The notes under the pieces are model-generated. The model was not told where the DNA came from, searched no databases, and worked only from the letters and a program-made list of their open reading frames with translations. DNA of 64,000 nucleotides from Candidatus Acidulodesulfobacterium ferriphilum (GTDB lineage: Bacteria; SZUA-79; Acidulodesulfobacterales; Acidulodesulfobacteraceae), in NCBI GenBank assembly GCA_004195035.1, contig SGBD01000001.1, positions 310,001-374,000 of the forward strand. The letters are read 5' to 3'. Of the stretch, positions 35,220-54,065 are shown one piece after another. The position numbers and the translations under genes are program-made. Positions within the stretch are counted from its first letter, which is position 1; each line of letters begins with the position of its first letter.

Positions 35220-36167
35220 TTATAAAGTTGTTGCCAAAGAACCTGATACTATCCTTCTATTAAAAGGAGCTGACTCTAAATTAGCCAGATATGCTACCGC
35301 CTTTTCTTTGCTTTTAAATGCGCCAAAAACAGTGGAACCGCTTCCCGATAAAAGGGATACTTCGGCGCCACGCCGCATCATAGAATCCTTAATTTCCTTG
35401 AGCATCGGATACTTTCTAAATATTACGGCCTCGAAATCGTTTTCAAATTTTATATTTTTAAAATCTAAGTATTGAATATTATAATAATTTAGGTTATTTG
35501 TCAATAAAAAATCGTCAAAATAATTATATGCCTCTTTTGTGCCTATTCCAAAATCAGGAATTATGATTACAATAAAGTATTTTGGCAATGCCGCCTCGGG
35601 GATTTCGTAAATATTTTCTCCAAACCCCGTTATAATTGCATCGCCCTTAGTTAAAAAAAAGGGGGCATCCGACCCCAATTCAAAGGCTAATTCTTGCAAT
35701 TCACGGAGACTAAATGCCCCCCCGAATATTTCATTTAACTTTAGTAACATCCCCGCGCCGTCGCTTGATCCGCCGCCTAATCCCGCTTTAAGAGGGATAT
35801 TCTTTTCTATTAAAACATCGATGCCTTTATCTTTAATATTTAATTTTTCAAAATAAATTTTAGCCGCTTTTATAATTATGTTGTCCAAGTTTGCAATAGA
35901 TTCTAATCCTGATTTAAAAATATCTTTCTTTAGTATTTTGCCGGAAATAACGGAAATTTCATAGCAACCATCCGTAAATTTAAAAGAAATTTTATCAAAA
36001 ATTCCAATTTTACGCATTAAAGATTGAATTTTATGAAGATTATTGGACCCCTTTTCGCCTATCTTTAATGAAAAATTAACTTTGGCGGGGGCATGATAGC
36101 AGAAACTTGTTGAATCAGGGGGGGTTAGCTTTTCGTAATCCTTAAAATAACGGTTCAGATGTTCCAT
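35220..36167 (-). CDS. ispE: 4-diphosphocytidyl-2-C-methyl-D-erythritol kinase
   Basis: IspE phosphorylates CDP-ME in the methylerythritol-phosphate pathway to isoprenoids. The GHMP kinase motifs are APAKVNFSLKI, then IPLKAGLGGGSSDGAGML (the ATP-binding glycine loop) and SLLSGSGSTVFGAF. At 315 residues it is longer than usual because about 24 residues precede the first motif. The start overlaps the end of nuoN by 13 bases, so it is translationally tied to the complex I operon. No other isp genes are visible. Confidence 0.93.
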   Translation of the reverse strand: MEHLNRYFKDYEKLTPPDSTSFCYHAPAKVNFSLKIGEKGSNNLHKIQSLMRKIGIFDKISFKFTDGCYEISVISGKILKKDIFKSGLESIANLDNIIIKAAKIYFEKLNIKDKGIDVLIEKNIPLKAGLGGGSSDGAGMLLKLNEIFGGAFSLRELQELAFELGSDAPFFLTKGDAIITGFGENIYEIPEAALPKYFIVIIIPDFGIGTKEAYNYFDDFLLTNNLNYYNIQYLDFKNIKFENDFEAVIFRKYPMLKEIKDSMMRRGAEVSLLSGSGSTVFGAFKSKEKAVAYLANLESAPFNRRIVSGSLATTL

Positions 36168-37735
36168 AACGAACTTATGGAATTATGCGCAAAATTTATA
36201 AATAATTGCGGATAAATACCCATTAGCAATGTAAAAAATAGGCAGATAAAAATTACTATCATTAATCCTTCGTTTATTTTACCGTTAACAATGCCGAAAT
36301 CGCTGGAGGGCTTACCTGTATCGGCTCCGCCGGCCATGCCGCCTCTCTGTACCCCATTTGGCGATGCAATTAATTCTTCCTTCTCAGGCATATACATCTG
36401 TACTATTATCTTTATGTAGTAAAATGCGGCAAAAGCGCTGTTAATAAAGGCTATTAAGACCAGCAGGTTATATCTTGATTTAATTGCCGCCGAAAACACG
36501 TAAAATTTTCCCATAAAGCCTGAAGTGACAGGGATTCCAGCCAAAGATAAAAGAAAAAATGTCATGGCGGCTGCAACGACAGGGTACTTATATCCGATGC
36601 CCGAATATTTCTTAATGTCTAAAGACATTAAATCAAAATTTTCAAATATAATGACAACCGCGAATGCCCCGGCTGTCATAAAAACATACGCCAATAAATA
36701 AAAAAGGGTTCCGGAATATCCGTAATATCCGCCGCCTATAATCCCCACGAGTATATAGCCTGCTTGCGCTATGGACGAATATGCCAGCAGCCTTTTAATA
36801 TTTGAGGACATAAGAGCCGCAATATTTCCAAATGACATCGAAAGTATAGCAAGCAACCATAATATATTATTAAAGTTCATTATATTAAAATTATAAATAA
36901 GGGAAAATATTCTTAAAAAAATTGCAAAAGCCGCTATTTTAACACCTGTTGCCATAAAATTAGTAACCGGCGTGGGAGCTCCGTCATAAGCATCCGGCGT
37001 CCATGCATGAAACGGAAAAAGCGACATTTTAAATGCAAGCCCCACTAAGAATAAAATCAGTCCTATAGCAAGATAAATCTTTATATTGTCAAAATTTACC
37101 AATCCTTTGCTTGCAATATTAACGATAAAAAAATGGATATTATACAAATTTAGATGGCCTGTAGCGGCATAAATAAATACTGATCCAAAAATTAAAAACG
37201 CGGATGCAAAAGTCCCGAGCACAAAATATTTTAATGCAGCTTCGGTGCTTCTTGCGTTTCCCTTTAAATAGCCTGTGAGAATATATGCGGTAATAGACAT
37301 AAATTCGATAGACAAAAACACCATAATAAGATTATTCGATGATACCAAAAGCATCATCGAGGCTACCCCGAATAAAATAAGGCTATAATATTCGGGAAGC
37401 GGTACTTCAAAATTATTTATATAATTGTTTGACATCAAGATTGTTAAAAAACCTGAAAAAAGGATGCCGATAAATAAAAATACGGAGAACCTGTTGAAAA
37501 CAATAGAGCCATAAAAACCGTCTATTGTCCTCCCTGACAACATTAAAATATAAAGCATGGAAAAACCAATGCTTATAAGGGAAAGATAATATGGATTATC
37601 ACTTTTTGAAAGTTTTTCAAAAAAAGTAAGAAAAAGAACTATAAAGGCAAAAATTATAATAATAGCCTCAGGTATTACGCTTAGCATGCCTTCTTCCAAA
37701 AAATTAATATTATATACTTGCGATACATCAAGCAT
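36155..37735 (-). CDS. nuoN: NADH-quinone oxidoreductase subunit N
   Basis: This is an antiporter-like membrane subunit of complex I, 526 residues with about 14 helices. Family motifs include IEFMSITAYILTGYLKGNARSTEAALKYFVLG and KMSLFPFHAWTPDAYDGAPTPVTNFMATGVKIAAFAI (proton-channel Lys/His region), then AGIPVTSGFMGKFYVF. A polar insertion lies near residues 455-485. nuoN overlaps nuoM by 8 bases and ispE by 13. Confidence 0.96.
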   Translation of the reverse strand: MLDVSQVYNINFLEEGMLSVIPEAIIIIFAFIVLFLTFFEKLSKSDNPYYLSLISIGFSMLYILMLSGRTIDGFYGSIVFNRFSVFLFIGILFSGFLTILMSNNYINNFEVPLPEYYSLILFGVASMMLLVSSNNLIMVFLSIEFMSITAYILTGYLKGNARSTEAALKYFVLGTFASAFLIFGSVFIYAATGHLNLYNIHFFIVNIASKGLVNFDNIKIYLAIGLILFLVGLAFKMSLFPFHAWTPDAYDGAPTPVTNFMATGVKIAAFAIFLRIFSLIYNFNIMNFNNILWLLAILSMSFGNIAALMSSNIKRLLAYSSIAQAGYILVGIIGGGYYGYSGTLFYLLAYVFMTAGAFAVVIIFENFDLMSLDIKKYSGIGYKYPVVAAAMTFFLLSLAGIPVTSGFMGKFYVFSAAIKSRYNLLVLIAFINSAFAAFYYIKIIVQMYMPEKEELIASPNGVQRGGMAGGADTGKPSSDFGIVNGKINEGLMIVIFICLFFTLLMGIYPQLFINFAHNSISSLWNI

Positions 37736-39269
37736 TGGACAACCCCATCTTTAATTTAATTAAATTGTGAATATATCCATGACGGCTTATCATGCCGAGA
37801 AAATGTACCACCGTAGGATCAATTCTTTCTAAAAACGGCGCGGGATAAAATCCTATAAGAAACATCAGCAATATTAACGGTAAAACCGTAATAATTTCCC
37901 TTAAATCCATGTCCTGAAAACTTTCTATTTGAGGGTTTGTGATGCCTTGAAACATAACCCGCTGGAACATCCATAACAGGTAAACCGCCGCAAAAATTAT
38001 TCCGCTTGTGGCAATTATCGTTAAAAGCATATAATGATTAAAAGACCCGACCAATATTAAAAATTCCCCCACAAAACCGTTTAAACCGGGTAGTCCGATG
38101 GACGCCAGAACGGAAATCATAAAAAGTGTAGTAAGTATCGGGGCTTTTTTTGCAATACCGCCAAAATCCGCAATTTGCCTCGTATGCGCCCTCTCGTAAA
38201 GCATTCCTACGAAAAGAAATAGCGCTCCGGTGGTAATCCCATGGTTTAAAAGTTGAAGGATAGAACCATCCACGCTAATTGCGGACATTGCAAATAAGCC
38301 CAGCATTATAAAACCCATATGCGAAACACTTGAAAATGCCACCAATCGCTTTAAATCCTTTTGAACTATAGAAACTAATGCCCCGTATAGAACCCCTATA
38401 ACTCCGATAATAATAACTATCGGCGCAAGCATTAAAGTTGCGCCGGGCAAAAGAGGCATCGCAAACCTGAAAAATCCATAAACCCCAAATTTTAAAAGAA
38501 CACCCGCAAGTATGACGCTGCCCGCTGTAGGGGCTTCGGTATGGGCATCCGGAAGCCATGTGTGAAATGGAAAAACCGGTATCTTAATCGCAAAACCCAA
38601 AAATAAAGCGATAAATAGCAATATTTGAAGATTAATCGGTATATGAGTATTATATAATCTCAAGATATTAAATGTAAAATTTCCCGTCTGATCGTAATGA
38701 AGTATAAAGATATAAATTAACCCGAATAACATTATAAGCGACCCCGACAATGTGTACAGGACAAATTTGACGGCCGAATACACCCTTCTGCCCGTTCCCC
38801 ACATTCCGATAATAAAATACATAGGAATCAGCATGAATTCCCAGAATAAATAAAATAAAAGAACATCTAACGACGCAAATGTTCCAATCATAAATGTTTC
38901 GAGTATCAGCATCAATATGACAAATTCCTTTACATGGTCTTTTATATATCTATAGCTTGAAATGAGGGAAACAAATGTTAAAAGGGTCGTTAATAAAATT
39001 AAGAACAGGCTTACGCCGTCTATCCCCAAAAAATATGACGCGCCGAATGTGCTTATCCAGTTTAATTTTTCGACAAATTGGAATTTATATGTATCCGGTT
39101 TAAAATAAACAAAAAGATAAACCGAAAAAATAAATTCTACAAGGGATAAAATTGAGGCAAGATTTCTTAATAATCCTTCATTTTTTTTATTAATAAACAT
39201 TAATAAAATAACCGAAGCCAATGGAAAAAAAATCAATATAGACAAAAGATATTTTATAAAGAAATCCAT
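37728..39269 (-). CDS. nuoM: NADH-quinone oxidoreductase subunit M
   Basis: The 513-residue proton-pumping subunit has about 14 helices. It shows the family motifs LFYLFWEFMLIPMYFIIGMWG, KIPVFPFHTWLPDAHTEAPTAGSVILAGVLLKFG and KRLVAFSSVSHMGF. The conserved Glu of helix V (FWEF) and the Lys of KIPVFPFH are present, so proton transfer residues are intact. It lies between nuoL (47 bp gap) and nuoN (8 bp overlap). Confidence 0.97.
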   Translation of the reverse strand: MDFFIKYLLSILIFFPLASVILLMFINKKNEGLLRNLASILSLVEFIFSVYLFVYFKPDTYKFQFVEKLNWISTFGASYFLGIDGVSLFLILLTTLLTFVSLISSYRYIKDHVKEFVILMLILETFMIGTFASLDVLLFYLFWEFMLIPMYFIIGMWGTGRRVYSAVKFVLYTLSGSLIMLFGLIYIFILHYDQTGNFTFNILRLYNTHIPINLQILLFIALFLGFAIKIPVFPFHTWLPDAHTEAPTAGSVILAGVLLKFGVYGFFRFAMPLLPGATLMLAPIVIIIGVIGVLYGALVSIVQKDLKRLVAFSSVSHMGFIMLGLFAMSAISVDGSILQLLNHGITTGALFLFVGMLYERAHTRQIADFGGIAKKAPILTTLFMISVLASIGLPGLNGFVGEFLILVGSFNHYMLLTIIATSGIIFAAVYLLWMFQRVMFQGITNPQIESFQDMDLREIITVLPLILLMFLIGFYPAPFLERIDPTVVHFLGMISRHGYIHNLIKLKMGLSNA

Positions 39270-39316: not shown

Positions 39317-41203
39317 TCACCTGATAAAAAAATAAAAAAGCAATGCGGCAACCCCGATAGTCAGAGTTAAAATATAACTCATTAACATGCCGTTTTGGAT
39401 TCTTTTTGCTTTAACCCCAAAAAATGCAAAACCTGATGCAATACCGTTAACAGCTCCGTCAATAATTAAAACATCTACAACCTTCCATAAAAAATTGGAA
39501 AAGCTCAGGGTCGGCTTGACAATTATTGCATTATATATCTCATCGATATAAACCTTGTTATAGGACAATGCGTATATAGGCTTAAAAATATTTTTAATCT
39601 TTTCAGGGTCAATAGCCTTTTTGATATATAAAAGATAGGCTATAAATATTCCAAGAAGCCCTACCAAAACAGATATGAGGCTTAAAATGTACCACGGAGT
39701 ATTGTTGACGAATGGGGCAAAGTTATATGAGTTTTTGAAATCAACATGTAAAAAACTATAAAATACGGAATTATTAAATGGGGGGATACCCAGAAACCCG
39801 ATTATTAAGGCAAGCGATGCCAGTATTATCATGGGAATCGTCATAATTTTCGGAGATTCATGGACATGCACCTTTGGATCTAGATTAGATTCTCCAAAAA
39901 AAGCCGTGAATATTAATCTAAAAATATAAAAAGCGGTCATTAAAGCGGTAATTTCTCCAATTACCCATGCAAAATAGAAACCCTTATTGTAAACATCCGC
40001 CAATATTGCGTCTTTACTAAAAAATCCGGAAAAAGGGGGTATGCCGGAAAGGGCAAGGCCGCCGACTATGAATGTAATAGCGGTAGTTTTCATCTTTGAA
40101 TATAGCCCGCCCATCTTTCTTAAGTCTAACTCGCCTGCAAGTCCATGCATTACACTGCCCGCGGTTAAAAATAGCAGCCCTTTAAAAACCGCATGCGAGA
40201 TAAGATGAAATATTCCTGCCGTATAAGAACCAATGCCCACGGCCATGAACATATATCCCAATTGGCTTATGGTTGAATATGCTATAATCCTTTTAATATC
40301 GAACTGCGTCAAAGCTATAAATGCGGCCAAAAATGCGGTAAGCGTCCCAATCGTTAAAACAACTTCGGATGCAAATTGCGAATATGAAAAGATTACATGA
40401 AATCTTGCAATCATATAAACGCCGGCGGTAACCATGGTAGCCGCATGAATTAATGCGCTGACCGGGGTAGGTCCCTCCATCGCATCCGGCAGCCACACAT
40501 GCAGAGGGAATTGCGCCGATTTTCCAACGGCTCCCGCGAATAGCAGCAAAGCGATAATCGTAACGGTAATGGACGGAATGGACGGAATCATTTTGAATAT
40601 AGTTTCATAATTGAGGGTTCCCGTAGTGACAAATAACAAAAAAATGCCGACCGCAAACCCGAAGTCTCCCACTCTATTAACTATAAAGGCTTTTTTCCCC
40701 GCATCCGAAGCGGATTTCTTCTCGTACCAGAACCCAATCAGGATATACGAACAAAACCCGACAGCTTCCCAGAATACATATAAAAGCAACAGGTTATTGG
40801 AAATTACGAGCATTATCATGGAGAAAACAAAAAGATTTAAGAACGAAAAATATCTCGCAAAACCCTTGTCATCCTTCATATATCCTATCGAATATATATG
40901 CACGAGGGCGCTTACCCCCGTAACCATAACGAGCATCACGACGGAAAGCCTGTCTATGACCGCAGATACCCCTGCCTTAAAGTTTGCCGCATGAATCCAG
41001 GGATAAAGCGTGGTCGTAAATCCATGCGTATATGAAACGATAAAAAACAAAACGGAAGAAAGAATAAAGGATATTACTACAAAAGAACTTGCTATATAAC
41101 CGGAATACCCCTTGAAATATTTTCCAAATAATCCCCAGAGAAACCAGCCCGCAAAGGGAAATAACGGTATCAGCCATGTAATTATAAATTTTGCGTCCAT
41201 CAA
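39317..41203 (-). CDS. nuoL: NADH-quinone oxidoreductase subunit L
   Basis: The 628-residue subunit is the distal proton pump with the long lateral C-terminal helix. Motifs: LYVFWEAVGFCSYILIGFWYEKKSASDAGKKAFIVNRVGDFGFA, AQFPLHVWLPDAMEGPTPVSALIHAATMVTAGVYMIAR, KRIIAYSTISQLGYM and SGIPPFSGFFSKDAIL. The conserved Glu, Lys and His channel residues are present. The transverse helix and last membrane anchor follow, at about residues 540-628. It lies downstream of nuoK. Confidence 0.97.
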   Translation of the reverse strand: MMDAKFIITWLIPLFPFAGWFLWGLFGKYFKGYSGYIASSFVVISFILSSVLFFIVSYTHGFTTTLYPWIHAANFKAGVSAVIDRLSVVMLVMVTGVSALVHIYSIGYMKDDKGFARYFSFLNLFVFSMIMLVISNNLLLLYVFWEAVGFCSYILIGFWYEKKSASDAGKKAFIVNRVGDFGFAVGIFLLFVTTGTLNYETIFKMIPSIPSITVTIIALLLFAGAVGKSAQFPLHVWLPDAMEGPTPVSALIHAATMVTAGVYMIARFHVIFSYSQFASEVVLTIGTLTAFLAAFIALTQFDIKRIIAYSTISQLGYMFMAVGIGSYTAGIFHLISHAVFKGLLFLTAGSVMHGLAGELDLRKMGGLYSKMKTTAITFIVGGLALSGIPPFSGFFSKDAILADVYNKGFYFAWVIGEITALMTAFYIFRLIFTAFFGESNLDPKVHVHESPKIMTIPMIILASLALIIGFLGIPPFNNSVFYSFLHVDFKNSYNFAPFVNNTPWYILSLISVLVGLLGIFIAYLLYIKKAIDPEKIKNIFKPIYALSYNKVYIDEIYNAIIVKPTLSFSNFLWKVVDVLIIDGAVNGIASGFAFFGVKAKRIQNGMLMSYILTLTIGVAALLFYFFIR

Positions 41204-41243: not shown

Positions 41244-41543
41244 TTATAATTTTAATTCATTTGCCTTATCTATATCGACCGTTCCCTTTTCCCTGTAAAA
41301 CGCAACGGCAATGCCAAGGGCTATTGCGGCTTCGGCGGCGGCCACGACCATCACAAAAATAACGAAAATGTCTCCGTCTATAAGATTAAGGTAGTTTGAA
41401 ACGGCAACGAATCCCAAATTGGCGGCATTAAACATTAACTCCAAACTCATAAATATTACTATTAAGTTTTTGCGCATTAAAACGCCGAGCATCCCGATGC
41501 AAAAAATTATTCCCGCAACTATTAAATAACCGTTTATCGACAT
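41244..41543 (-). CDS. nuoK: NADH-quinone oxidoreductase subunit K
   Basis: This is a small three-helix subunit of 99 residues. It has the family core GMLGVLMRKNLIVIFMSLELMFNAANLGFVA with the conserved Glu in SLEL, and the second membrane Glu in AAAEAAIALGIAVAFYREKGTVD. It forms the proton path between the quinone site and the antiporter subunits. It lies 42 bp downstream of nuoJ and 40 bp upstream of nuoL. Confidence 0.96.
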   Translation of the reverse strand: MSINGYLIVAGIIFCIGMLGVLMRKNLIVIFMSLELMFNAANLGFVAVSNYLNLIDGDIFVIFVMVVAAAEAAIALGIAVAFYREKGTVDIDKANELKL

Positions 41544-41584: not shown

Positions 41585-42088
41585 TTAAGATTTCTTTTTG
41601 GCAAATAGATAGGCGCCGATTATGGCGACCAATAAAAGAACAGATGCAACTTCGAACGGAAATATATACTTTGTAAATAAAAATTCGCCTAATATCTGCG
41701 TATTCCCAATTTTATTAATTAAAGCATGCGTATAAATACCCGTCGGTTTTTTTGGGTAACCGTTAATAATATAAATGGTTATTTCCGCCAATAAAATTAT
41801 AAAAATTACCCCCGCTATGAATATCTGGTGCAAATCCATTTTAATTTTTTTTATTTTTGAAAGATTGAGCAGCATGATAACCAATACAACCAATACCATA
41901 ATAGCCCCGGCATAAACAAGGATTTGCATGGCCGCAAGAAACTGCATATCTAACAGGACATAAAAACCGGCAAGAGCAAAAAAGCAAAGCACTAAATATA
42001 AGGCGGAAGTTAAAGGGTTTTTCATCGATATGACCATTAACGCCGAAAAAACAGCTATAATTGAAAAAATATAAAAAAGCGCTTCCAA
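41585..42088 (-). CDS. nuoJ: NADH-quinone oxidoreductase subunit J
   Basis: The 167-residue subunit has five helices, with NPLTSALYLVLCFFALAGFYVLLD and QFLAAMQILVYAGAIMVLVVLVIMLLNL. The latter is the family motif in the helix that undergoes a pi-bulge change in complex I. It is followed by a loop that varies among species and a final helix ending in LFAKKKS. Order and strand fit between nuoI and nuoK. Confidence 0.95.
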   Translation of the reverse strand: MEALFYIFSIIAVFSALMVISMKNPLTSALYLVLCFFALAGFYVLLDMQFLAAMQILVYAGAIMVLVVLVIMLLNLSKIKKIKMDLHQIFIAGVIFIILLAEITIYIINGYPKKPTGIYTHALINKIGNTQILGEFLFTKYIFPFEVASVLLLVAIIGAYLFAKKKS

Positions 42089-42116: not shown

Positions 42117-42632
42117 TTATCTGGATTCTATTAACTTTTCTACCCCGTAAATTCCTTCGTCCCGCGTATAAAAAGCTACTTCATAATTACTTCCCATGCT
42201 TATTGCTTCTTCAGGGCAAATCTCTTCGCAATAGCCGCAGCAGATACATCTTAATAAATCGATATCAAAAGACGACGGATGCCTTCTTCCGTCATTAAAT
42301 GTATTATGCGCAAGCTTGTCTAAGCTATGATTATGCTTTTGCCTCTCCGTAAGTTCGTGATTGTCGCCGTAATCTACATATCCTGATTTTATTTTAATGG
42401 CCTCCGACGGACATACGGTCTGGCATAAAAAACATGCAACGCACCTTAACGACCCGTCTTTATTTACATTAAGTTTGGGAAAGGCTCTGAATCTTTCGGC
42501 TATTTCAAGCCTTTCTCTCGGGTATTGAAAGGTTACGGGTTTATTAAAAAAGGTCTTTATCGTAGTCTTTAACCCCACCAATAAATTTTTAGAAATTTCT
42601 ATAATAGAATTTTCCTGTTTCTTAGTATCCAT
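42117..42632 (-). CDS. nuoI: NADH-quinone oxidoreductase subunit I, 2x4Fe-4S
   Basis: The 171-residue peripheral-arm protein has the two ferredoxin clusters N6a and N6b, in RCVACFLCQTVCPSEAI and CICCGYCEEICPEEAI. The second follows DIDLLRC with the typical spacing. They pass electrons towards the quinone site. It lies 6 bp from nuoH and 28 bp from nuoJ. Its N-terminal helix links to the membrane arm. Confidence 0.96.
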   Translation of the reverse strand: MDTKKQENSIIEISKNLLVGLKTTIKTFFNKPVTFQYPRERLEIAERFRAFPKLNVNKDGSLRCVACFLCQTVCPSEAIKIKSGYVDYGDNHELTERQKHNHSLDKLAHNTFNDGRRHPSSFDIDLLRCICCGYCEEICPEEAISMGSNYEVAFYTRDEGIYGVEKLIESR

Positions 42633-42638
42633 ATTATT

Positions 42639-43625
42639 TTATTTGTTTATTAATATCATTATAAAACCGGTAACTATAATGTTAGCCAATGCCAGCGGCA
42701 ATAAAAACTTCCATCCAAAATCCATGAGTTCGTCATACCTTAACCTTGGATATGTCCATCTTAACCATAAATAAATAAGTACGACAAAAAAAAGCTTTAT
42801 TAAAAACCATAAAACCGAAGGAAGGAAAGGACCCTGCCATCCTCCTAAAAACAAAGTAACTATTATCGCGCTATTAACTACTATTTGGGCATACTCGCCG
42901 ATAAAATAGAACGCAAACTCCATACTTGAATATTCCGTGTGAAACCCGGCGACAAGCTCTCCCTCCGCCTCTCCTAAATCGAAAGGAACTCTATTCATTT
43001 CAGCCGTGGAAGCAATCAAATAAATTATAAAGCCTACAGGCTGATAAACTATAAACCAGATATGCGACTGCTCGGAAACTATTCTGGATAAACTCAAATC
43101 CCCCGCGATCATTATTACTCCAATAATAGAAAGGACAAGGGGAATTTCATAGCTGATCATTTGAGCCGCCGTACGTATTCCTCCAAGCAATGAATATTTG
43201 CTGTTGGAAGCCCAACCCCCCAAAACCACTCCGTAAATCCCGAGCGATGACAATGCTAAAATAAAAAGTATTCCGATATTTACATCCGTAATCTGAAGCG
43301 GAACGGTATGCCCCAGAATCTTAACAGGCGCGCCGAACGGTATAACCGCGAATGTAGTCAGCGCAGGAATAACCACTATTATAGGGGCCAAAAGAAACAA
43401 AATCTTATCGGCATCCGCGGGTATAATATCCTCCTTAAAAAAAAGTTTTATTCCATCCGCTATCGGCTGCAATAACCCATGAAATCCCGCTTCCATAGGA
43501 CCCATTCTGTTTTGGATTTTCGCCGCCACCTTACGCTCTAAAAGTGTCAGATAAGCCGCCGCCGCAAGCAAACCCGCGAAAACGATTAATATTTTTATAA
43601 TCTCTGCTATAAGCCAAAATATCAT
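42639..43625 (-). CDS. nuoH: NADH-quinone oxidoreductase subunit H
   Basis: The 328-residue protein has eight membrane helices and contains the quinone-binding chamber. Motifs: LLERKVAAKIQNRMGPMEAGFHGLLQPIADGIKLFFKED, and TAEMNRVPFDLGEAEGELVAGFHTEYSSMEFAFYF. The second carries the acidic residues on the quinone loop. The C-terminal WLRWTYPRLRYDELMDFGWKFLLPLALAN is standard. It is downstream of nuoG. Confidence 0.97.
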   Translation of the reverse strand: MIFWLIAEIIKILIVFAGLLAAAAYLTLLERKVAAKIQNRMGPMEAGFHGLLQPIADGIKLFFKEDIIPADADKILFLLAPIIVVIPALTTFAVIPFGAPVKILGHTVPLQITDVNIGILFILALSSLGIYGVVLGGWASNSKYSLLGGIRTAAQMISYEIPLVLSIIGVIMIAGDLSLSRIVSEQSHIWFIVYQPVGFIIYLIASTAEMNRVPFDLGEAEGELVAGFHTEYSSMEFAFYFIGEYAQIVVNSAIIVTLFLGGWQGPFLPSVLWFLIKLFFVVLIYLWLRWTYPRLRYDELMDFGWKFLLPLALANIIVTGFIMILINK

Positions 43626-43695: not shown

Positions 43696-45822
43696 TTAAT
43701 AATATAACTTAGTTTTATCGTTATAATAAAATTTACTTTTAGTTTTAATCTTATTGTAATATGTTGCATTCTCTAACTTTAACGATTTAACGAACTCGGA
43801 CAATTCATTCTTTATATAATTAAACGAATATCCTAATTTGTTTGAGATTAAGGTTAAAAAATCTAAAATATCGCTTCTATATACGCCCAAATCAAATTCA
43901 TTATCCAAATGTATCTTTTTACCCTCAAAATTTTCATAGAACGCATCTTTTGATTCAAGAAAATCGTACACCGGTATAACGACATCCGCCATAGTAGATA
44001 ATATGCTCGCCTTAGAAGAAAAAACGGCTAAAAACTCTAAATCCGTTATATATTTAGTCAATTCTTTAGTTATGTAATTACTTATAGGGTCGCCTATATA
44101 AATGAGATTTTTTATTTTCCCCGCATCAAATCCCGAATATATAGAATTAAAACCTAAAAGATTAGAGGGGTTTACCCCCGCGCTTTCAAGTCCTCTATAA
44201 TTAAAAGGCTTCATAAGAGGATAAACATATACTATTTTTTGTTCATCCCTCAAAAATTCGACCATTTCTTTAATAGCAAGAAAATCTTTACCCATATTAT
44301 AAGCCGACATTGGAAAGTCGCCGATTATAATGGAAATAGAATTTGACTTAAGAATATTTTTGGATACCCTGTTTAGCTGACTGTCCATTTCATCATCTTT
44401 TTTAAAGCCGTAATCGTAAAGATTTAATCTTAGACTATTTAAGAAATAGTGTATTTCAGATAACTCTATATCCTTCCTTATATGTGCAATATCCTCAAAT
44501 CTTGTTAAAACAGGATTTACTTGTTTTTTAATATTTACAAGTAAAAGTTTTCCTCCATGTTCCCTGTGTGTTTTCATAATGTTATATGAAACATACGGAA
44601 TTTCATCCTCTATAGAGCCGATATACAATATTACATCGGAATTTTGTACGGCTTTAATCTCGAAGTTTTCTTCGTTTTTAAAAACGGTTTTAAATTTATT
44701 AAAGTTCTCCCTATAAAATTCCGGTTCGGCTATATCGAAATAGGCGGGTTTTAAAATATATTTCACAAAATTAGAAATTACGAACCCATCATTTGTGGAA
44801 ATACCCGGGGATACTAAAACTGCGGTATTTTCCATGCCGTTTTTTCCGGAAATATTTTTAATTCTTAAAACAAACTCATTTATTGCATCTTCAATGCCTG
44901 TTTCTTTCGGCATAGATTTCTTTTTAATAATGGGGGCTTGAATATAATAGCCGTCCGATTTTCCGATACCCTCGTAAAAAAATCCGGAGCGGCACAAATA
45001 TCCGCCGAATAAAGAAGCAGTTCTGACCAAAGATTCTTCTTTATCATACCTGTAATACTCAATCCTGCATGCGGCGGAACATTTATCGCAGACGGATGAA
45101 AAGGGCGACACCTGCCAGTACCTTTCTTTAAACTTCGAAGGTTTTGAAATTAATGCGCCGACGGGACAGACTTCGATACAATTCCCGCAATAATAGCAAT
45201 CTAAATAATTTACCTCCGGCTTAATTTCCATAAACCCGCAGTTCTCGGATGGAATTGCGCCCATTTCCAATTTATCGTCTTGTTTTAAACCGATGTAACC
45301 GTTATACCCTTTGTCTTTGATTTGATAAAACGGATTCCCGTACATATCTGTGCATACCCTAATACACCTTGAGCACAGCACGCACCTCGTAGCATGATAT
45401 TCGATAATATCGCTTTTAAATATATGCGTTCTATCAGGAAAAATCTTTTCATTTTTCTGGGTTGTGATGCCAAATTCAAAAGATAAATCCTGTAAACTGC
45501 ATTCGCCGGATTTATCGCAAACGGGACAATCAAGAGGATGATCCAATAGAAGATGCGACATTACTTCTTTTCTCACTTTCCATAGTTTTTCGGTATCGGT
45601 TAAAATTTCATACCCTTCTTTTACTTTTGCGACGCAAGACGGAAGAGGATTTTTAACTCCTTTAACCTCAACCACGCAAATTCTGCATGAGCCGATAGGT
45701 CTTAGCCTCTTAAGATAGCAAAGCGTTGGTATTTTTATACCGTTTTGGGCGGCGGCCTCAAGAACGGTAATACCTGATTTAGTCATTATTTTTTTGCCGT
45801 TTATCGTAATTTCGATATCCAT
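43696..45822 (-). CDS. nuoG: NADH-quinone oxidoreductase subunit G
   Basis: The 708-residue protein begins with a 2Fe-2S domain (ITINGKKIMTKSGITVLEAA, and Cys set in CYLKRLRPIGSCRICVVEV ... CVAKV). The N5 region (HPLDCPVCDKSGECSLQD), two ferredoxin-like clusters (CVLCSRCIRVC and CYYCGNCIEVCPVGAL), and a molybdopterin-family 4Fe-4S site (CDKCSAAC ... LCRSG) follow. The rest is a diverged molybdopterin-oxidoreductase fold without cofactor ligands, as in other NuoG. It would normally sit beside NuoE and NuoF; here it is preceded by the NuoF-GltD fusion. ATG start. Confidence 0.95.
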   Translation of the reverse strand: MDIEITINGKKIMTKSGITVLEAAAQNGIKIPTLCYLKRLRPIGSCRICVVEVKGVKNPLPSCVAKVKEGYEILTDTEKLWKVRKEVMSHLLLDHPLDCPVCDKSGECSLQDLSFEFGITTQKNEKIFPDRTHIFKSDIIEYHATRCVLCSRCIRVCTDMYGNPFYQIKDKGYNGYIGLKQDDKLEMGAIPSENCGFMEIKPEVNYLDCYYCGNCIEVCPVGALISKPSKFKERYWQVSPFSSVCDKCSAACRIEYYRYDKEESLVRTASLFGGYLCRSGFFYEGIGKSDGYYIQAPIIKKKSMPKETGIEDAINEFVLRIKNISGKNGMENTAVLVSPGISTNDGFVISNFVKYILKPAYFDIAEPEFYRENFNKFKTVFKNEENFEIKAVQNSDVILYIGSIEDEIPYVSYNIMKTHREHGGKLLLVNIKKQVNPVLTRFEDIAHIRKDIELSEIHYFLNSLRLNLYDYGFKKDDEMDSQLNRVSKNILKSNSISIIIGDFPMSAYNMGKDFLAIKEMVEFLRDEQKIVYVYPLMKPFNYRGLESAGVNPSNLLGFNSIYSGFDAGKIKNLIYIGDPISNYITKELTKYITDLEFLAVFSSKASILSTMADVVIPVYDFLESKDAFYENFEGKKIHLDNEFDLGVYRSDILDFLTLISNKLGYSFNYIKNELSEFVKSLKLENATYYNKIKTKSKFYYNDKTKLYY

Positions 45823-45929: not shown

Positions 45930-47834
45930 TTATTTAAACTTTACAAGCATAAGAAAATAACACCTCATACACCTTGTGGCTTCATAAATAACATCATCGC
46001 TGGTTAAACCCTTGTCAACTTCCATAAAATTACTTATGCGCATCTCAACATCTTCTTCCACCTGTTTAGCTGCAGGATTTCCTTTCGGAAAATCGGTATA
46101 ATCTATTATCTCTTTTTTGTCATAAACACCAATCTTTTCTAACAGATATTCAAAAAGGCAATCGTCCGTTGCTTCAAATGAGCCCGTTCTTATATATTGA
46201 TCTATCCTTCTTGCGGCATTTTTACCGTCGCGATTTGAATCGACTATGCTGATGGGTCCCGTAAATGCGTCGCCGCCGGCGAATACTCCAGGCATATCGG
46301 TCATATGCGTAAACTCGTCCGCTATTATTATTTTGCCTTTACCTGTTTTAATCTGCGGCGTATCTTTCAAAAAATCAAAATCCGGAACCTGCCCGACCGC
46401 CATAATAAACGAATCACATTCTATGTCAAAATCGGAACCAGGAACTTCCACGGGGCTTCTTCTGCCACTTTCATCGGGATCTCCGAGTTTCATTTTTATG
46501 CACTTTACGCCTTTAACCGCCCCGTTTTCTTGGATAATACTCACGGGGTTAGTCAAAAATTCAAATTTAACGCCTTCTTTAATGGCAGTATCGATTTCGT
46601 AAGGAGCTGCAGGCATCTGCTCTCTCGCTCTTCTATATACAACGATAACTTCTTCGAACCCTAACCTGATTGCTGTCCGGCAGCAATCTATAGCTACATT
46701 GCCGCCCCCTTCTATGATAACCTTCCTGCAGGTTTCGATTTTATTCCCAAGGGAGACATCCCTTAAAAATTTAACCCCTTCATAAAAACCCTTAAGGTTG
46801 TCCTGCTCTCCTGGCAACCCTATATTTTGTCCCTTATGTGCGCCGACCGCAAGGAAAACGGCTTTAAAATCTTGCCCAAAAAGATCCCTTATCGTAAAAT
46901 CGGTTCCAAGTCTTTGATTTAATTTATAATCGATTCCGGTAGAAAGGATATAATCAATTTCTTTATCTAAGAATTCTTTCGGCAACCTGTATTTCGGGAT
47001 GCCGACATTCATCATTCCCCCCAAAACGGGCAGCGCTTCAAATATCACGGGCTTATAGCCCATTAAGCGCAAATAGTACGCACAGCTTAAACCGGCGGGA
47101 CCTGAACCGACGATTGCTATTTTAATCCCGTTGTCTTTGATTGCGAATTTCGGTTTGATATCGGAATAAAATTCGTTATCGGCGGCGAATCGTCTTATTA
47201 AACATATCTGAATGGGCTCATCGACATTAGCCCTGCGGCAATTGTCTTGGCACGGATGAAAGCAGGTTCTTCCCAAAATCCCTGCTAACGGGGTATTTCT
47301 TCTCGCGGATTCGAGCGCGTCTTCAAATCTGCCGTCCCTGACCCTTTCTATCCAGTTTGGAATATCGAGTTTGGATGGACAGCCGTTAATGCAAGGGGCG
47401 GTTATCTTAGTTATATAATCCCCTTTCGGTATAATTTCTTTATTTATTATTGCGTTTTCGAAATCTTCCCTGAAATTATCTATTAGTTCGGTAACGGCTA
47501 ACGGTCCCATGGTTCCCACGGTGCACTTAGAAGACGATAAAATCCATTCGCATTGATTCCTTAATCTATCCAAATCTTCTAAAATAGCACGACCGTTACA
47601 TATATGTTCGAGAATATCGGAAGCAACCGAAGTTCCAATCATGCACGGGGTACAAACGCCGCAAGAAATCTTTTGAAGTTCGTTCATATAGCATCTTGCC
47701 AGATCAACTTTATTGTCCTTGTCGTCAAGCAAAGCTATGCCGTTCCAATTAAGTATGGAGGATATTTCGGCGTGGCCCGTTCTTTTAAAGAATGAAATAT
47801 CTAATTTTGAACCAATTTTATCTATAATCTTCAT
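45930..47834 (-). CDS. Fusion: NuoF C-terminal 4Fe-4S domain + GltD-type FAD/NAD(P)H oxidoreductase
   Basis: This 634-residue protein replaces NuoE and NuoF in the complex I operon. Residues 25-130 match the NuoF C-terminal domain, with cysteines 58, 61, 64 (ISCGVCTPCMIGT) and 104 as N3 cluster ligands. The FMN/NADH and SLBB parts of NuoF are absent. Residues about 145-220 are a GltD/DPYD-type 4Fe-4S domain (APCINGCPS and CFHPCQDNC, with Cys211). They are followed by an FAD Rossmann domain (GSGPAG at 243-248) and a nucleotide domain (GGGNVA at 376-381, with VVYRR at 399-402, suggesting NADPH). A final cysteine pair (CMRC) lies near the end. Predicted role: NAD(P)H or ferredoxin-linked entry for complex I electrons. 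Confidence 0.85.
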   Translation of the reverse strand: MKIIDKIGSKLDISFFKRTGHAEISSILNWNGIALLDDKDNKVDLARCYMNELQKISCGVCTPCMIGTSVASDILEHICNGRAILEDLDRLRNQCEWILSSSKCTVGTMGPLAVTELIDNFREDFENAIINKEIIPKGDYITKITAPCINGCPSKLDIPNWIERVRDGRFEDALESARRNTPLAGILGRTCFHPCQDNCRRANVDEPIQICLIRRFAADNEFYSDIKPKFAIKDNGIKIAIVGSGPAGLSCAYYLRLMGYKPVIFEALPVLGGMMNVGIPKYRLPKEFLDKEIDYILSTGIDYKLNQRLGTDFTIRDLFGQDFKAVFLAVGAHKGQNIGLPGEQDNLKGFYEGVKFLRDVSLGNKIETCRKVIIEGGGNVAIDCCRTAIRLGFEEVIVVYRRAREQMPAAPYEIDTAIKEGVKFEFLTNPVSIIQENGAVKGVKCIKMKLGDPDESGRRSPVEVPGSDFDIECDSFIMAVGQVPDFDFLKDTPQIKTGKGKIIIADEFTHMTDMPGVFAGGDAFTGPISIVDSNRDGKNAARRIDQYIRTGSFEATDDCLFEYLLEKIGVYDKKEIIDYTDFPKGNPAAKQVEEDVEMRISNFMEVDKGLTSDDVIYEATRCMRCYFLMLVKFK

Positions 47835-47865: not shown

Positions 47866-49065
47866 TTACCTGTCCACTTCTCCCAGCAATATATCCACAC
47901 TGCCCATAATCGCAACTAAGTCGGCTAACAAATGCCCCTTCGTCATTTTACACAAAGCGCTGATATTACAAAACGACGGCGGTCTCACCCGCATGCGGTA
48001 AGGAAAAGCCGAACCATCCGACACCAGATAAAAACCAAGTTCTCCTCTCGGATTTTCTACGGAGTGGTATGCCTCGCCCTTTGGCGGCTTTATGCCCTCC
48101 ATACCGTATTTAAAGAGCGATATCATGCCTTCCATTGTGGTCAACGCCCTTTTTTTAGGGGGGATAACATAGCGGGGATATTCGTCATAGCTTAAATATT
48201 CGCCCGCCGGAATATTTTCGACCGCCTGATTTATTATTTTAAGGCTTTGCCTCATCTCTTCTATTCTTACGAAATATCTATCGTAAACATCTCCCGTATC
48301 TCCAAGAGGGATTTCGAAATCAAAATCTTCATAGCTTGAATAAGGGTTTGTCTTCCTGACATCATATTTTAATCCGCTGCCTCTGAGGGAAGGCCCGGTC
48401 AATGCGAAATTAGCCGCATCTTCGGCGGAAATTATACCTAAATTTTTGGTTCTTTCTAACCAAATTTTGTTCTTTGTGAGTAACGCTTCATACTCGCTGA
48501 CTTTTTCGGGAAAAATTTTTATAAAATTCCGCGTTTTATCTATAAAATCTTTGTGTATATCCATTGCTAAACCGCCGACCCGATAAAAGGAAGGGGTCAT
48601 CCTTGCGCCGGTAACCGCTTCTATGATATCTAATATTAACTCTCTTTCGCGAAAACAGTATAGAAACTCGGTTAAAGCGCCTATATCAACGGCGTGCGTA
48701 CCCAGCCATACAAGATGGGAACTGATTCTTGTAAACTCTGCAAGGATAACCCTGACATATTCAGCTCTTTTAGGGGCTTTTACGCCGCAAAGCTTTTCGA
48801 CGGCAAGAATATAACCCAAGTTATTTGAAGCGGCGGAAACATAGTCCATTCTGTCCGTAATAGTCTCGGCCTGATGGTAGGTTCGGGATTCGGCATATTT
48901 TTCCATACTTGTATGTAAATAACCTATAACAGGTTCCGCATTAACTACAACTTCTCCGTCTAATTGAACCAAAACCCTGAGAACGCCGTGAGTGGCGGGA
49001 TGAGAGGGACCCACATTCAATGGAAATTTATCTGTCTCTATTAAGAAATCTTTGTATTCAAACAT
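47866..49065 (-). CDS. nuoD: NADH-quinone oxidoreductase subunit D
   Basis: The 399-residue 49-kDa-type subunit lines the quinone site with NuoB. Motifs: NVGPSHPATHGVLRVLVQLDGE, IGYLHTSMEKYAESRTYHQ, TPSFYRVGGLAMDIHKDF and the C-terminal DGSAFPYRMRVRPPSFCNISALCKMTKGHLLADLVAIMGSVDILLGEVDR. The catalytic Tyr and His equivalents are within the conserved contexts. It is a stand-alone NuoD, not fused to NuoC. It lies 30 bp from nuoC and 31 bp from the NuoF-GltD fusion. Confidence 0.97.
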   Translation of the reverse strand: MFEYKDFLIETDKFPLNVGPSHPATHGVLRVLVQLDGEVVVNAEPVIGYLHTSMEKYAESRTYHQAETITDRMDYVSAASNNLGYILAVEKLCGVKAPKRAEYVRVILAEFTRISSHLVWLGTHAVDIGALTEFLYCFRERELILDIIEAVTGARMTPSFYRVGGLAMDIHKDFIDKTRNFIKIFPEKVSEYEALLTKNKIWLERTKNLGIISAEDAANFALTGPSLRGSGLKYDVRKTNPYSSYEDFDFEIPLGDTGDVYDRYFVRIEEMRQSLKIINQAVENIPAGEYLSYDEYPRYVIPPKKRALTTMEGMISLFKYGMEGIKPPKGEAYHSVENPRGELGFYLVSDGSAFPYRMRVRPPSFCNISALCKMTKGHLLADLVAIMGSVDILLGEVDR

Positions 49066-49095: not shown

Positions 49096-49638
49096 TTATG
49101 GTTTTTGGGTTATTTCATCCATTTCGACATATCCCGGGGTATCAAAATTTATCGTTTCGACCGGCGGCCTTTGCCTTAACGGGTAATCTTTAAGAAGAGG
49201 ATGCCCTTCCCAGTCATCGGGATTCAATATTCTTTTCAAATCGGGATGCCCCTTGAATTTTAAACCAAACATATCGTAAACTTCCCTTTCAAACCAATTT
49301 GCCGAATTGTAAAGCGGCGTTAAACTGGGGTAATCAGGCTCGTTTATTTTGCTTCTGCTCTTTACAAATATTCTGAAATTATTTTTTGTAGAATAAAAAT
49401 TATAAATTACTTCTATTCTTTCGGGCTTCTTTGGATAATCAACGGCAAACAAGTCGGATAACATATCGAATTGCAGCCTGGAGTCGTCTTTTAAGAATTT
49501 TGCAAAATCTATAATATTTTCTTTGCCCGTGAATATATGCATATCGCCATTAGAAGTTTCGATCGAAGAAACTAATTTTGGCATAGATTCCTTTATGACG
49601 CTAAGTGCAAATAAGACATCCATCTCTTTAAGGCTCAT
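49096..49638 (-). CDS. nuoC: NADH-quinone oxidoreductase subunit C
   Basis: The 180-residue protein matches the 30-kDa subunit: MLSDLFAVDYPKKPERIEVIYNFYS, then DYPSLTPLYNSANWFEREVYDMFGLKFKGHPDLKRILNPDDWEGHPLLKDYPLR. The last segment is the strongest family signature and contacts NuoD and NuoB. It is a separate gene from nuoD, unlike the E. coli fusion. Order nuoB-nuoC-nuoD is normal. Confidence 0.96.
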   Translation of the reverse strand: MSLKEMDVLFALSVIKESMPKLVSSIETSNGDMHIFTGKENIIDFAKFLKDDSRLQFDMLSDLFAVDYPKKPERIEVIYNFYSTKNNFRIFVKSRSKINEPDYPSLTPLYNSANWFEREVYDMFGLKFKGHPDLKRILNPDDWEGHPLLKDYPLRQRPPVETINFDTPGYVEMDEITQKP

Positions 49639-49697: not shown

Positions 49698-50192
49698 TTA
49701 CTTTAAAATCTTAGGCGGTTCCCCGCTTTTTATAGTCCCTTTTTCTATCTTTTCTTGAAGTTTTACTATGCCGTATATGAGGGCTTCCGGTCTGGGCGGA
49801 CAACCGGGGATATAAACATCGACGGGAATAATTCTGTCAACGCCCTGAACTATGCTATAAACATTAAAAAGCCCCCCTGAACAGGCACAATCACCCATTG
49901 CAATAACCCATTTCGGATTTGGCATCTGATCATAAATTCTTTTAACCATGGGAGCCATTTTATATGAAACCCTTCCTGATACGATAATTAAATCGGATTG
50001 CCTGGGACTTGACCTGAAAATTAAACCTAATCTATCGAAGTCATACCGGGAAGAGGCAACAGTCATCATTTCGATAGCACAACAGGCCAAACCAAATGTC
50101 GCAGGCCAAATCGACCATTTTCTGCCCCATGAAACAAGCTTATCTAACGATGTCGTTATAATGTTATCACCCAGATGTTCTTCTATTCCCAT
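49698..50192 (-). CDS. nuoB: NADH-quinone oxidoreductase subunit B, N2 cluster
   Basis: The 164-residue PSST-type subunit binds the last cluster, N2. The ligand cysteines are visible in [16 protein letters not shown] (the tandem Cys-Cys), [14 protein letters not shown] and [15 protein letters not shown]. The conserved Arg and Asp residues near FRSSPRQSD are present. It overlaps the end of nuoA by 10 bases, so the first two genes are translationally coupled. Confidence 0.97.
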
Positions 50193-50560
50193 CTAAGCGC
50201 CCCCTTTTTCCACACATACAAAAGACCTATGACTAATATTATGATAAACATAAACATTTCTATAAATCCGAAAAGCCCCAGCTCTGAAAAAACAACGGCC
50301 CAAGGAAATAAAAAAAGCGCTTCGATATCAAAAAGAAGAAAAAAAATGGCAACAAGATAAAATTTAACATCAAATCTGAAGTGGGCATCGCCTGTCGGTT
50401 CAACCCCGCACTCATAAGGTTTTAATTTTCCGATTTCGTATGTTTTTTTTCCAATAAAATTTGAGGCTATAATTGTAAAAATGGCAAATAATATGGCTAT
50501 TACGAGCATTATAAGGATGGGTAGAAAAGAATTCAAACTATCTCCATTCATATTATTCAT
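50183..50560 (-). CDS. nuoA: NADH-quinone oxidoreductase subunit A
   Basis: The 125-residue membrane protein has three helices and the family signature [45 protein letters not shown]. The acidic [11 protein letters not shown] part is the most conserved. It is the first complex I gene, 96 bp downstream of pepA, and probably begins the operon or shares the pepA transcript. Confidence 0.96.
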
Positions 50561-52253: not shown

Positions 52254-54065
52254 TTAATACTTAAACCTTTTTATTATCCCTATAAGCTTTTCCAGCTCCC
52301 CGTAAACGGAAGCCGCTTCTTTGGCAGTGCTTGAAGACTGCTTCGAATTTGATGCGGCAAGATTCGATACCATTTCGATATTTTGGGAAATCTCGTTTGT
52401 TGCCGCCGTTTGCTCCTCTGATGCCGCGGCTATGGAATTAACCTGGTCTGCCAGGCCTACTATGTTTCTTTCTATGCTATTAAGCGATTCTCCCGCCTTT
52501 GAAGCATATTCCACCGATAAGCTGACTTCTTTCATCGTGGAATCCATCGAAGATTTTGTATTTTGGGTGCTTTGCTGTATGGTTTGAACCTTCGATACTA
52601 TCTCTTTTGTTGCCTTAACCGTTCTTTCCGCAAGCTTTCTTACCTCATCCGCCACAACGGCAAATCCCCTTCCTGACTCTCCGGCGCGCGCGGCCTCTAT
52701 TGCGGCATTAAGCGCCAGCAGGTTTGTCTGATCGGCTATATCGTTGATAACCGAGATTATTTCTCCAATCTCGTAAGAACCCTTTTCGAGCCCGTTTATT
52801 AGGCTTCCAAGTTCTTCCGTAAGAACGGCCACATTTTTAATACCGTTTATCGCCCTTTCGACTATGTCAAAGCCTTCTTTTGCACTGCCGGAAGCCTCTT
52901 TTGCGACACTGCTTAAATTTTGCGTATTTTTGGATATCTCTTTAATCGTCTGACTCATTTCTTCCGAGGCCGCTGCCACATGCGTCGAAAGCAAAGCCTG
53001 TTCTTTAGCCTTACCGCTTATTTCATCGACATGGGTTTCTATCGATGTGTTTACATCGACAATGGTCATGGCCTCTTCGGTTATAGATTTTACGATTTCT
53101 CTTATATCTATAATAAATTTGTTAAATTTGTTAGCGACGGATGTAATTTCATCATATACGGAATTTTTATAAACATCGCATTTTATGCAAATCTGCCCAC
53201 CCGTATCTCCATACCGGTCTTGCTGCTTATCCCAGCATCTCGGCTCCAGTTCATCTTCTTTAAGCATGCAATTCTTGCTTTTCTTCATCATAATAGTTGT
53301 CTTATTATAACAGTCCATAGGAATAAGCTTGCTTAAATCTCCGTCTCCCCTTACAATATCGTTCAGCTTATCGTAAAGATTTTTTGTCGGCTTTATAAAG
53401 ATAGATTTTAATAAACCATATATGGCTAAAATAGATAGAACAAGAAAGATAAAGGAAACGATAATAATGTTTCTCATAAAAATATTGGATGAGTTTACGG
53501 CATTTTTCATGGAATAAATAAGCTTAACCCCGCCGAGCGTCGTCCCGTCTTTAACCGTATGGCACATAAGGCAGTTTATACCCCTGGACATCTTTTTTGC
53601 GACAAACGGAACGCCGACTTTTAGATATTCATGTCCGTTTTTATTGAATATACTGATAATTTCCTTATTTGACCCCAGTATTTCTTTGTCAAACTTAGTT
53701 GTCGGATTTTCATGTTTGAGCCCTGGACCGAACTCTTTATTAACGGCTTCGCCTCTTATAACTTTAACATCTTTAATGCCCTGAATTTTTTTAAATATCC
53801 CGAAAAGCTGCCTTCTATCGGACTTCTTAGAAATAGTTCCGTTAAGCATCATGGCATTTAAACTGGAAAGCACCGTTTTGGCAGTAACGACGGCATCGCT
53901 TGATGTCATTTTAACGGACATTTTGTTCTGGCTGGAAACAGAGTAATAAGTTAAAAATGATAAAATTAAAATAAAAACGAAAGTGATTAGGAAAAGTAGT
54001 TTGGTCTTAATAGAGACCTTTTTAATCAAATTTAAATCCACCTTATTTATCCCCCCTGCCTGCAT
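52254..54065 (-). CDS. Methyl-accepting chemotaxis protein with periplasmic haem-c motif
   Basis: The 603-residue receptor has a first membrane helix (about 22-42), a periplasmic sensor domain ending in a CLMCH haem-binding motif at 165-169, a second helix (about 197-217) and a HAMP linker. The long MCP signaling domain includes the tip [40 protein letters not shown]. Between HAMP and signaling domain is a Cys-rich segment with Cys266, 277, 293 and 296, plus Cys252. The pattern suggests redox or gas sensing by c-type haem; DUF3365-like sensors are similar. A GUG at 54041 with a G-rich site upstream could be an alternative start. Confidence 0.82.

Follow-up and report, generated by a model that had tools for sequence, protein, structure and literature searches.

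A fused N3-GltD subunit takes the place of NuoE and NuoF in the complex I operon of Candidatus Acidulodesulfobacterium ferriphilum and probably accepts electrons from NADPH

Among the electron donors known for pumps of the complex I type are NADH, ferredoxin, F420H2 and, probably, flavodoxin. The loss of NuoE and NuoF (NuoEF) has already been reported in Campylobacterota (PMC6682613) and in 11-subunit enzymes devoid of an N module (PMC11238625). In the Campylobacterota the missing subunits give way to two different genes of the nuo cluster, nuoX and nuoY, and flavodoxin or ferredoxin is the presumed donor of the resulting enzyme (PMC6682613). The GltD/NuoG fusions StnC, NsoC and NfnA display a circularly permuted GltD half, a C-terminal CxxC motif and an NADPH-FAD-[4Fe-4S] wire; in StnC, which has been shown to bind NADPH, the GltD part is embedded in a NuoG-like chain, and the electrons go to a bifurcating module of NuoE/NuoF type (PMC10482914). 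The beta subunit (FdhB) of the NADP formate dehydrogenase of Moorella thermoacetica, likened here to the fusion by its domain list, combines 4Fe-4S, ferredoxin-type and NADP-binding domains (PMC5736913) and serves a soluble formate dehydrogenase. As for the organisms considered here, a published analysis of the order Acidulodesulfobacterales gives the nuo genes as near-complete 'except nuoE, nuoF and nuoG' (PMC6776010), and the passages of it considered here do not mention the fusion described below.

The window (the whole stretch of 64,000 nucleotides that was analysed) contains thirteen nuo-operon genes, all in the same direction on the minus strand and separated by -10 to 107 nt. These are, in order, nuoA (50183-50560, PF00507), nuoB (49698-50192, PF01058), nuoC (49096-49638, PF00329), nuoD (47866-49065, PF00346), the fusion gene (45930-47834), nuoG (43696-45822), nuoH (42639-43625, from sequence and synteny), nuoI (42117-42632, with 4Fe-4S dicluster domains), nuoJ (41585-42088, PF00499), nuoK (41244-41543, from sequence and synteny), nuoL (39317-41203, PF00361 and PF00662), nuoM (37728-39269, PF00361 and PF01059) and nuoN (36155-37735, PF00361 and position). 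A preliminary description of this DNA had reported subunits A to D and G to N as present in order, which domains and synteny confirm, and NuoE and the FMN/NADH part of NuoF as missing; indeed neither NuoE nor a Complex1_51K domain is found in the otherwise complete nuoA-N operon. The 708-residue NuoG carries ligands for N1b, N5, N7 and the two [4Fe-4S] clusters of its ferredoxin domain, and those of N4 are likewise kept. The second of these ferredoxin-domain clusters lacks its ligands in E. coli NuoG. No catalytic Cys or Sec was found in the window NuoG, whereas the FdhA partner of Moorella-type NADP formate dehydrogenases has one or the other. The operon is of the complex I (NDH-1) kind in that A-D and H-N are encoded together and the ligands of N1b, N4 and N5 in NuoG and of N3 are present; it departs from the canonical 14-subunit enzyme by the lack of the FMN/NADH domain of NuoF and of NuoE with its N1a. 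The predicted complex shares the eleven core subunits, the NuoG clusters and N3 with E. coli NDH-1 but not its FMN, NuoF-type NADH site or N1a. It differs from the 11-subunit enzymes in having both NuoG and an N3 domain, and the fusion differs from Moorella FdhB by its location in a full nuoA-N operon.

The single gene announced between nuoD and nuoG at 45930-47834 proved to be one intact minus-strand frame of 634 residues without internal stops; read on the plus strand, these positions are rich in stops. Its product, in place of NuoE and NuoF, joins a NuoF-type N3 [4Fe-4S] domain to an FAD/NAD(P)H oxidoreductase of GltD/NfnL type. Pfam domains were found at residues 44-127 (NADH_4Fe-4S), 145-222 (Fer4_20) and 238-528 (Pyr_redox_2), while the same search detected neither Complex1_51K (FMN/NADH, PF01512) nor a ferredoxin-binding or docking domain in the fusion. 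The N3-type domain covers residues from about 45 to 127 (47454-47702, minus strand; PF10589, 3e-18). Upon alignment its residues C58, C61, C64 and C104 coincide with the four N3 cysteines of E. coli NuoF, so that Pfam and alignment agree with the earlier identification of a C-terminal NuoF domain with these ligands, and the entire FMN/NADH region of the E. coli protein is missing. The GltD core (residues about 145-528; 46251-47402, minus strand) comprises the Fer4_20 and FAD/NAD(P)H domains (PF14691, PF07992; alignments to NfnL and StnC), with C148, C152, C191, C195, C199, R214, R283 and Y400-R401-R402 as residues of note. Over about 480 residues, the GltD half as a whole shares about 40% identity with solved chains of StnC/NfnA type, and it also aligns to NfnL.

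In NfnL and GltD, an N-terminal segment ending in RCxxC helps to bind the first [4Fe-4S] cluster. The counterpart of this segment is C-terminal in the fusion (residues 593-626; 45957-46058, minus strand), where it ends in RCMRC and contains C622 and C625. Two solved chains of NfnL type align through their N-terminus with residues 593-625 of the fusion, and a profile built from the last 44 residues of 30 fusions matches residues 21-60 of the NfnL encoded in the same genome with an E value of 3e-16, compared with a best value of 0.34 over 200 shuffles of that NfnL. Alignment indicates that the permuted arrangement of the GltD half is common to the fusion, StnC and NfnA. The five cysteines previously assigned to the GltD part (148, 152, 191, 195 and 199) do belong there, but the list was incomplete: by homology, C622 and C625 would complete the second GltD-type [4Fe-4S] cluster. 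The predicted ligands of the distal cluster are C148, C199, C622 and C625; those of the proximal cluster are probably C152, C191 and C195 together with a non-Cys residue, R214. The latter is invariant in the family alignment and falls on the StnC ligand K170 and on a Glu of the bifurcating NfnB. NfnB uses Glu as this non-Cys ligand and StnC uses Lys170, and a K170R variant of StnC retained about half of the activity (PMC10482914). With respect to NfnL/GltD, the fusion therefore has in common the FAD and NAD(P)H domains and two [4Fe-4S] sites, and differs by the C-terminal location of its CxxC segment and by the replacement of the proximal Glu ligand by Arg214. An AlphaFold2 model computed with 19 family rows as input (mean pLDDT 52, pTM 0.36) is poor outside the N3 domain and too poor for cluster distances.

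We consider it probable that the fusion is the input subunit of a true proton-pumping complex I, where NuoE and the FMN/NADH half of NuoF have given way to a non-bifurcating NADPH dehydrogenase of GltD type. NADPH would transfer a hydride to the FAD of the GltD half, and single electrons would then pass through the proximal cluster (C152, C191, C195 and probably R214) and the distal cluster (C148, C199, C622, C625) to N3 (C58, C61, C64, C104), to N1b and the N4/N5 chain of NuoG and finally to quinone. Such a path would involve no second flavin, no FMN and no N1a. An input running from the FAD enzyme through N3 into NuoG had been suggested at the outset and is still the best-supported reading: the N3 ligands and those of the NuoG clusters are all kept, as first described, the gene keeps a fixed place between nuoD and nuoG, and it persists in relatives without NuoE and NuoF. 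StnC offers a linear NADPH-FAD-[4Fe-4S] wire of the same kind leading into a NuoG-like chain (PMC10482914), with the difference that the fusion joins GltD to N3 and is proposed to deliver to quinone; no StnAB-like (NuoE/NuoF-type) bifurcating module was found in the nuo operon. In the forward mode the complex would act as an NADPH:quinone oxidoreductase. In the reverse mode the large proton gradient of an acidophile would drive NADPH formation for CO2 and N2 fixation, which is possible since the hosts, found in acid mine drainage, are described in the order-level analysis as likely rTCA autotrophs and N2 fixers (PMC6776010). While the domains, ligands, gene order, conservation and absence of alternatives in relatives can be read from the sequences, we infer from them the assembly of the fusion into complex I, the donor and the direction of the reaction.

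Complex I normally uses NADH and some GltD-type enzymes prefer it, so that the same architecture could be fed physiologically by NADH or by both pyridine nucleotides. We regard this as unlikely, because the YRR motif at 400-402, including R401 and R402, is invariant in the family and common to solved NfnL, StnC and NfnA-type chains, and StnC binds NADPH (PMC10482914). Motif and homology (about 40% identity to NADPH-binding chains of NfnL/StnC type) make NADPH the likeliest donor, in agreement with one half of the initial suggestion of NADPH or ferredoxin. NfnS-type domains are present in the genomes tested, the host genome itself having an nfnS-nfnL pair, and PntB was not found in the genomes tested; the NADPH pool would accordingly be tied to NADH and ferredoxin through NfnAB.

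The other half of that suggestion fared less well. Ferredoxin or flavodoxin might be the direct donor, with the NAD(P)H site being secondary, or the fusion might bifurcate or confurcate between NADPH, ferredoxin and quinone. The window NuoG possesses the additional [4Fe-4S] site mentioned above, the hosts live under anaerobic or microaerobic conditions, and the Campylobacter complex I, which has likewise lost NuoEF and uses other nuo-cluster genes instead, is thought to be fed by flavodoxin or ferredoxin (PMC6682613). However, the fusion shows no ferredoxin-docking domain in the Pfam search. The presence of Arg at the position of the NfnB Glu ligand counts against an Nfn-type bifurcating FAD and places the fusion nearer to the non-bifurcating StnC (PMC10482914); no second flavin site was found in the fusion either. 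Its FAD is expected to be non-bifurcating, and direct feeding by ferredoxin or flavodoxin, or bifurcation, appears quite improbable.

A separate and intact nuoE-nuoF pair, which the preliminary description had named as a possible refutation if expressed with this operon, does exist in the host genome, but it is located in a formate dehydrogenase locus. The single NuoF domain found outside the operon lies in an intact nuoE-nuoF-fdhA locus whose third gene scores 857 bits against TIGR01591 (cut-off 666) and encodes a formate dehydrogenase alpha subunit with a catalytic-type CxxxCH motif and its own NuoG-like N-terminus. From its context, the pair is read as the beta/gamma pair of that formate dehydrogenase. 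A comparable Fds locus in Desulfitobacterium was judged to be outside complex I (PMC11238625). Complex I could nonetheless borrow this NuoEF, leaving the fusion to act with NuoG alone as a soluble NADPH enzyme of its own, in the manner of SfrAB; in some other genomes the fusion does adjoin a NuoG- or FdhA-like gene without nuo neighbours. We hold this to be very unlikely, given that the pair is contiguous with an FdhA already equipped with a NuoG-like N-terminus and that the N3 domain of the fusion would fill the NuoF docking site. Moreover, no NuoF domain was found in 12 of the 30 family genomes, and four near-complete relatives (G007, 100% complete; G006, 99%; G010, 97%; G005, 95%) lack both NuoE and NuoF and retain nuoABCD-fusion-GHIJKL. 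Complex I of the family is therefore independent of a borrowed NuoEF, and borrowing from formate dehydrogenase is ruled out as a general explanation. In two other genomes (G004 and G009), NuoE- and NuoF-type domains occur in one ORF (frames of 663 and 780 aa) in which the NuoF domain is split by an insertion.

The host is an uncultured bacterium of acid mine drainage, and its nearest public relatives are metagenome-assembled genomes, including those of Ca. Acididesulfobacter diazotrophicus and SZUA-79. The search for the same fusion in related genomes retrieved it at full length in 28 of 30 family genomes, the two exceptions being 86% and 59% complete, and the order nuoD-fusion-nuoG was displayed by all 24 loci checked. 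Against five relatives the fusion gives dN/dS values of 0.04-0.08, which points to purifying selection. An assembly chimera or a decaying gene, the other refutation initially foreseen, is hardly conceivable and is ruled out by this conservation across many assemblies, by the synteny, by the lack of internal stops and by the dN/dS values.

The fusion is not unique to this order, as it adjoins nuoD in at least two other phyla. Among 386 genomes searched, 14 that do not belong to the family encode short N3-GltD fusions (about 650-690 residues), and the neighbourhoods of all 14 were inspected. In G263 and G125, both sampled genomes of their phylum, nuoD is followed by the fusion, by a selenocysteine formate dehydrogenase replacing nuoG and then by nuoH and nuoI, an arrangement that possibly represents a complex I accepting both formate and NADPH. 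The selenocysteine of FdhA in these two clusters (L071 and L072) corresponds to the TGA codon in HCARLUH. The N3-GltD architecture is also paired with a selenocysteine FdhA in loci L073 and L075, the closest match found to the Moorella arrangement. G346 has nuoD on one side of the fusion and two nuoG genes on the other; in G362 it is followed by a NuoG-like gene and then by nuoBCDH. In three genomes of one family, nuoJKLMN come after the fusion and a NuoG-like gene, and a second locus with nuoD but neither nuoE nor nuoF lies elsewhere. In the remaining seven genomes the fusion adjoins a NuoG- or FdhA-like gene alone. The phylum of G346 shows a match (E 1e-160 or better) in 21 of its 121 sampled genomes and is taken as Campylobacterota on the basis of the 16S sequence of one member, G456, which is nearest to Sulfurovum (88%) and Aliarcobacter (87%). 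Nine further clusters were inspected in this phylum; in eight of them the fusion is preceded by nuoD and followed by nuoG genes, albeit with a 96-residue frame between nuoD and the fusion in one and a 95-residue opposite-strand frame in another; in the ninth, that of G456, nuoD is not beside the fusion. Tandem nuoG genes follow the fusion in loci of this type (L079, L150-L158); in the seven of the nine clusters that extend far enough, the fusion sits between nuoD and such tandem genes. Viral contigs were searched for relatives as well and none were found. The literature search, covering open-licence publications only, retrieved no description of a complex I with an N3-GltD subunit, and novelty outside this order is uncertain.

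A gene tree of 30 rows was built from short and long fusions. A fully supported split sets the short fusions apart from the long NuoF-GltD ones. Outside the family, rows linked to complex I fall in three places and the family makes a fourth, with two of these rows lying on long branches and flagged as unsure by the program. The label of complex I association needs at least four changes on this tree, and the starred branches force four. This topology fits several recruitments of the fusion to complex I, although one early gain of the association followed by later losses may also account for it. The broader proposal that a transferable N3-GltD plug has independently replaced NuoEF in Acidulodesulfobacterales, in part of the Campylobacterota and in the phylum with selenocysteine FdhA would define an NADPH-specific class of complex I whose pump works directly on the NADPH pool, perhaps reversed in acidophiles; we judge it about evenly balanced between right and wrong.

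If the reading of the fusion as an NADPH-specific input subunit is correct, complex I would link the proton gradient to the anabolic cofactor directly, by way of a single FAD. NADPH would provide more driving force toward menaquinone than NADH, their E' values being about -380 and -280 mV, respectively (table in PMC9304861), and operation in reverse would let autotrophic acidophiles make NADPH directly from the proton gradient. The locus would then be a clean case of input-module exchange in complex I, and it would explain why the nuo genes of this order are given as lacking nuoE, nuoF and nuoG in the published analysis (PMC6776010).

Related architectures were also encountered. In Collinsella aerofaciens (L140:13893-17530), a protein of 610 residues combines the N3 cysteines with a GltD half and has CLRC at its C-terminus; it adjoins a group A [FeFe]-hydrogenase gene and is possibly part of an NADPH-linked hydrogenase. 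Long fusions of NuoF type and GltD (about 770-1060 aa; L060-L067, L080 and L081) are mostly located beside NuoE-like and NuoG/FdhA-like genes. Elsewhere in the window, the product encoded at positions 52254-54065 resembles methyl-accepting chemotaxis proteins; it has a CxxCH motif (LMCHTVKDG) as well as a region rich in cysteines, and might be a sensor that binds haem.
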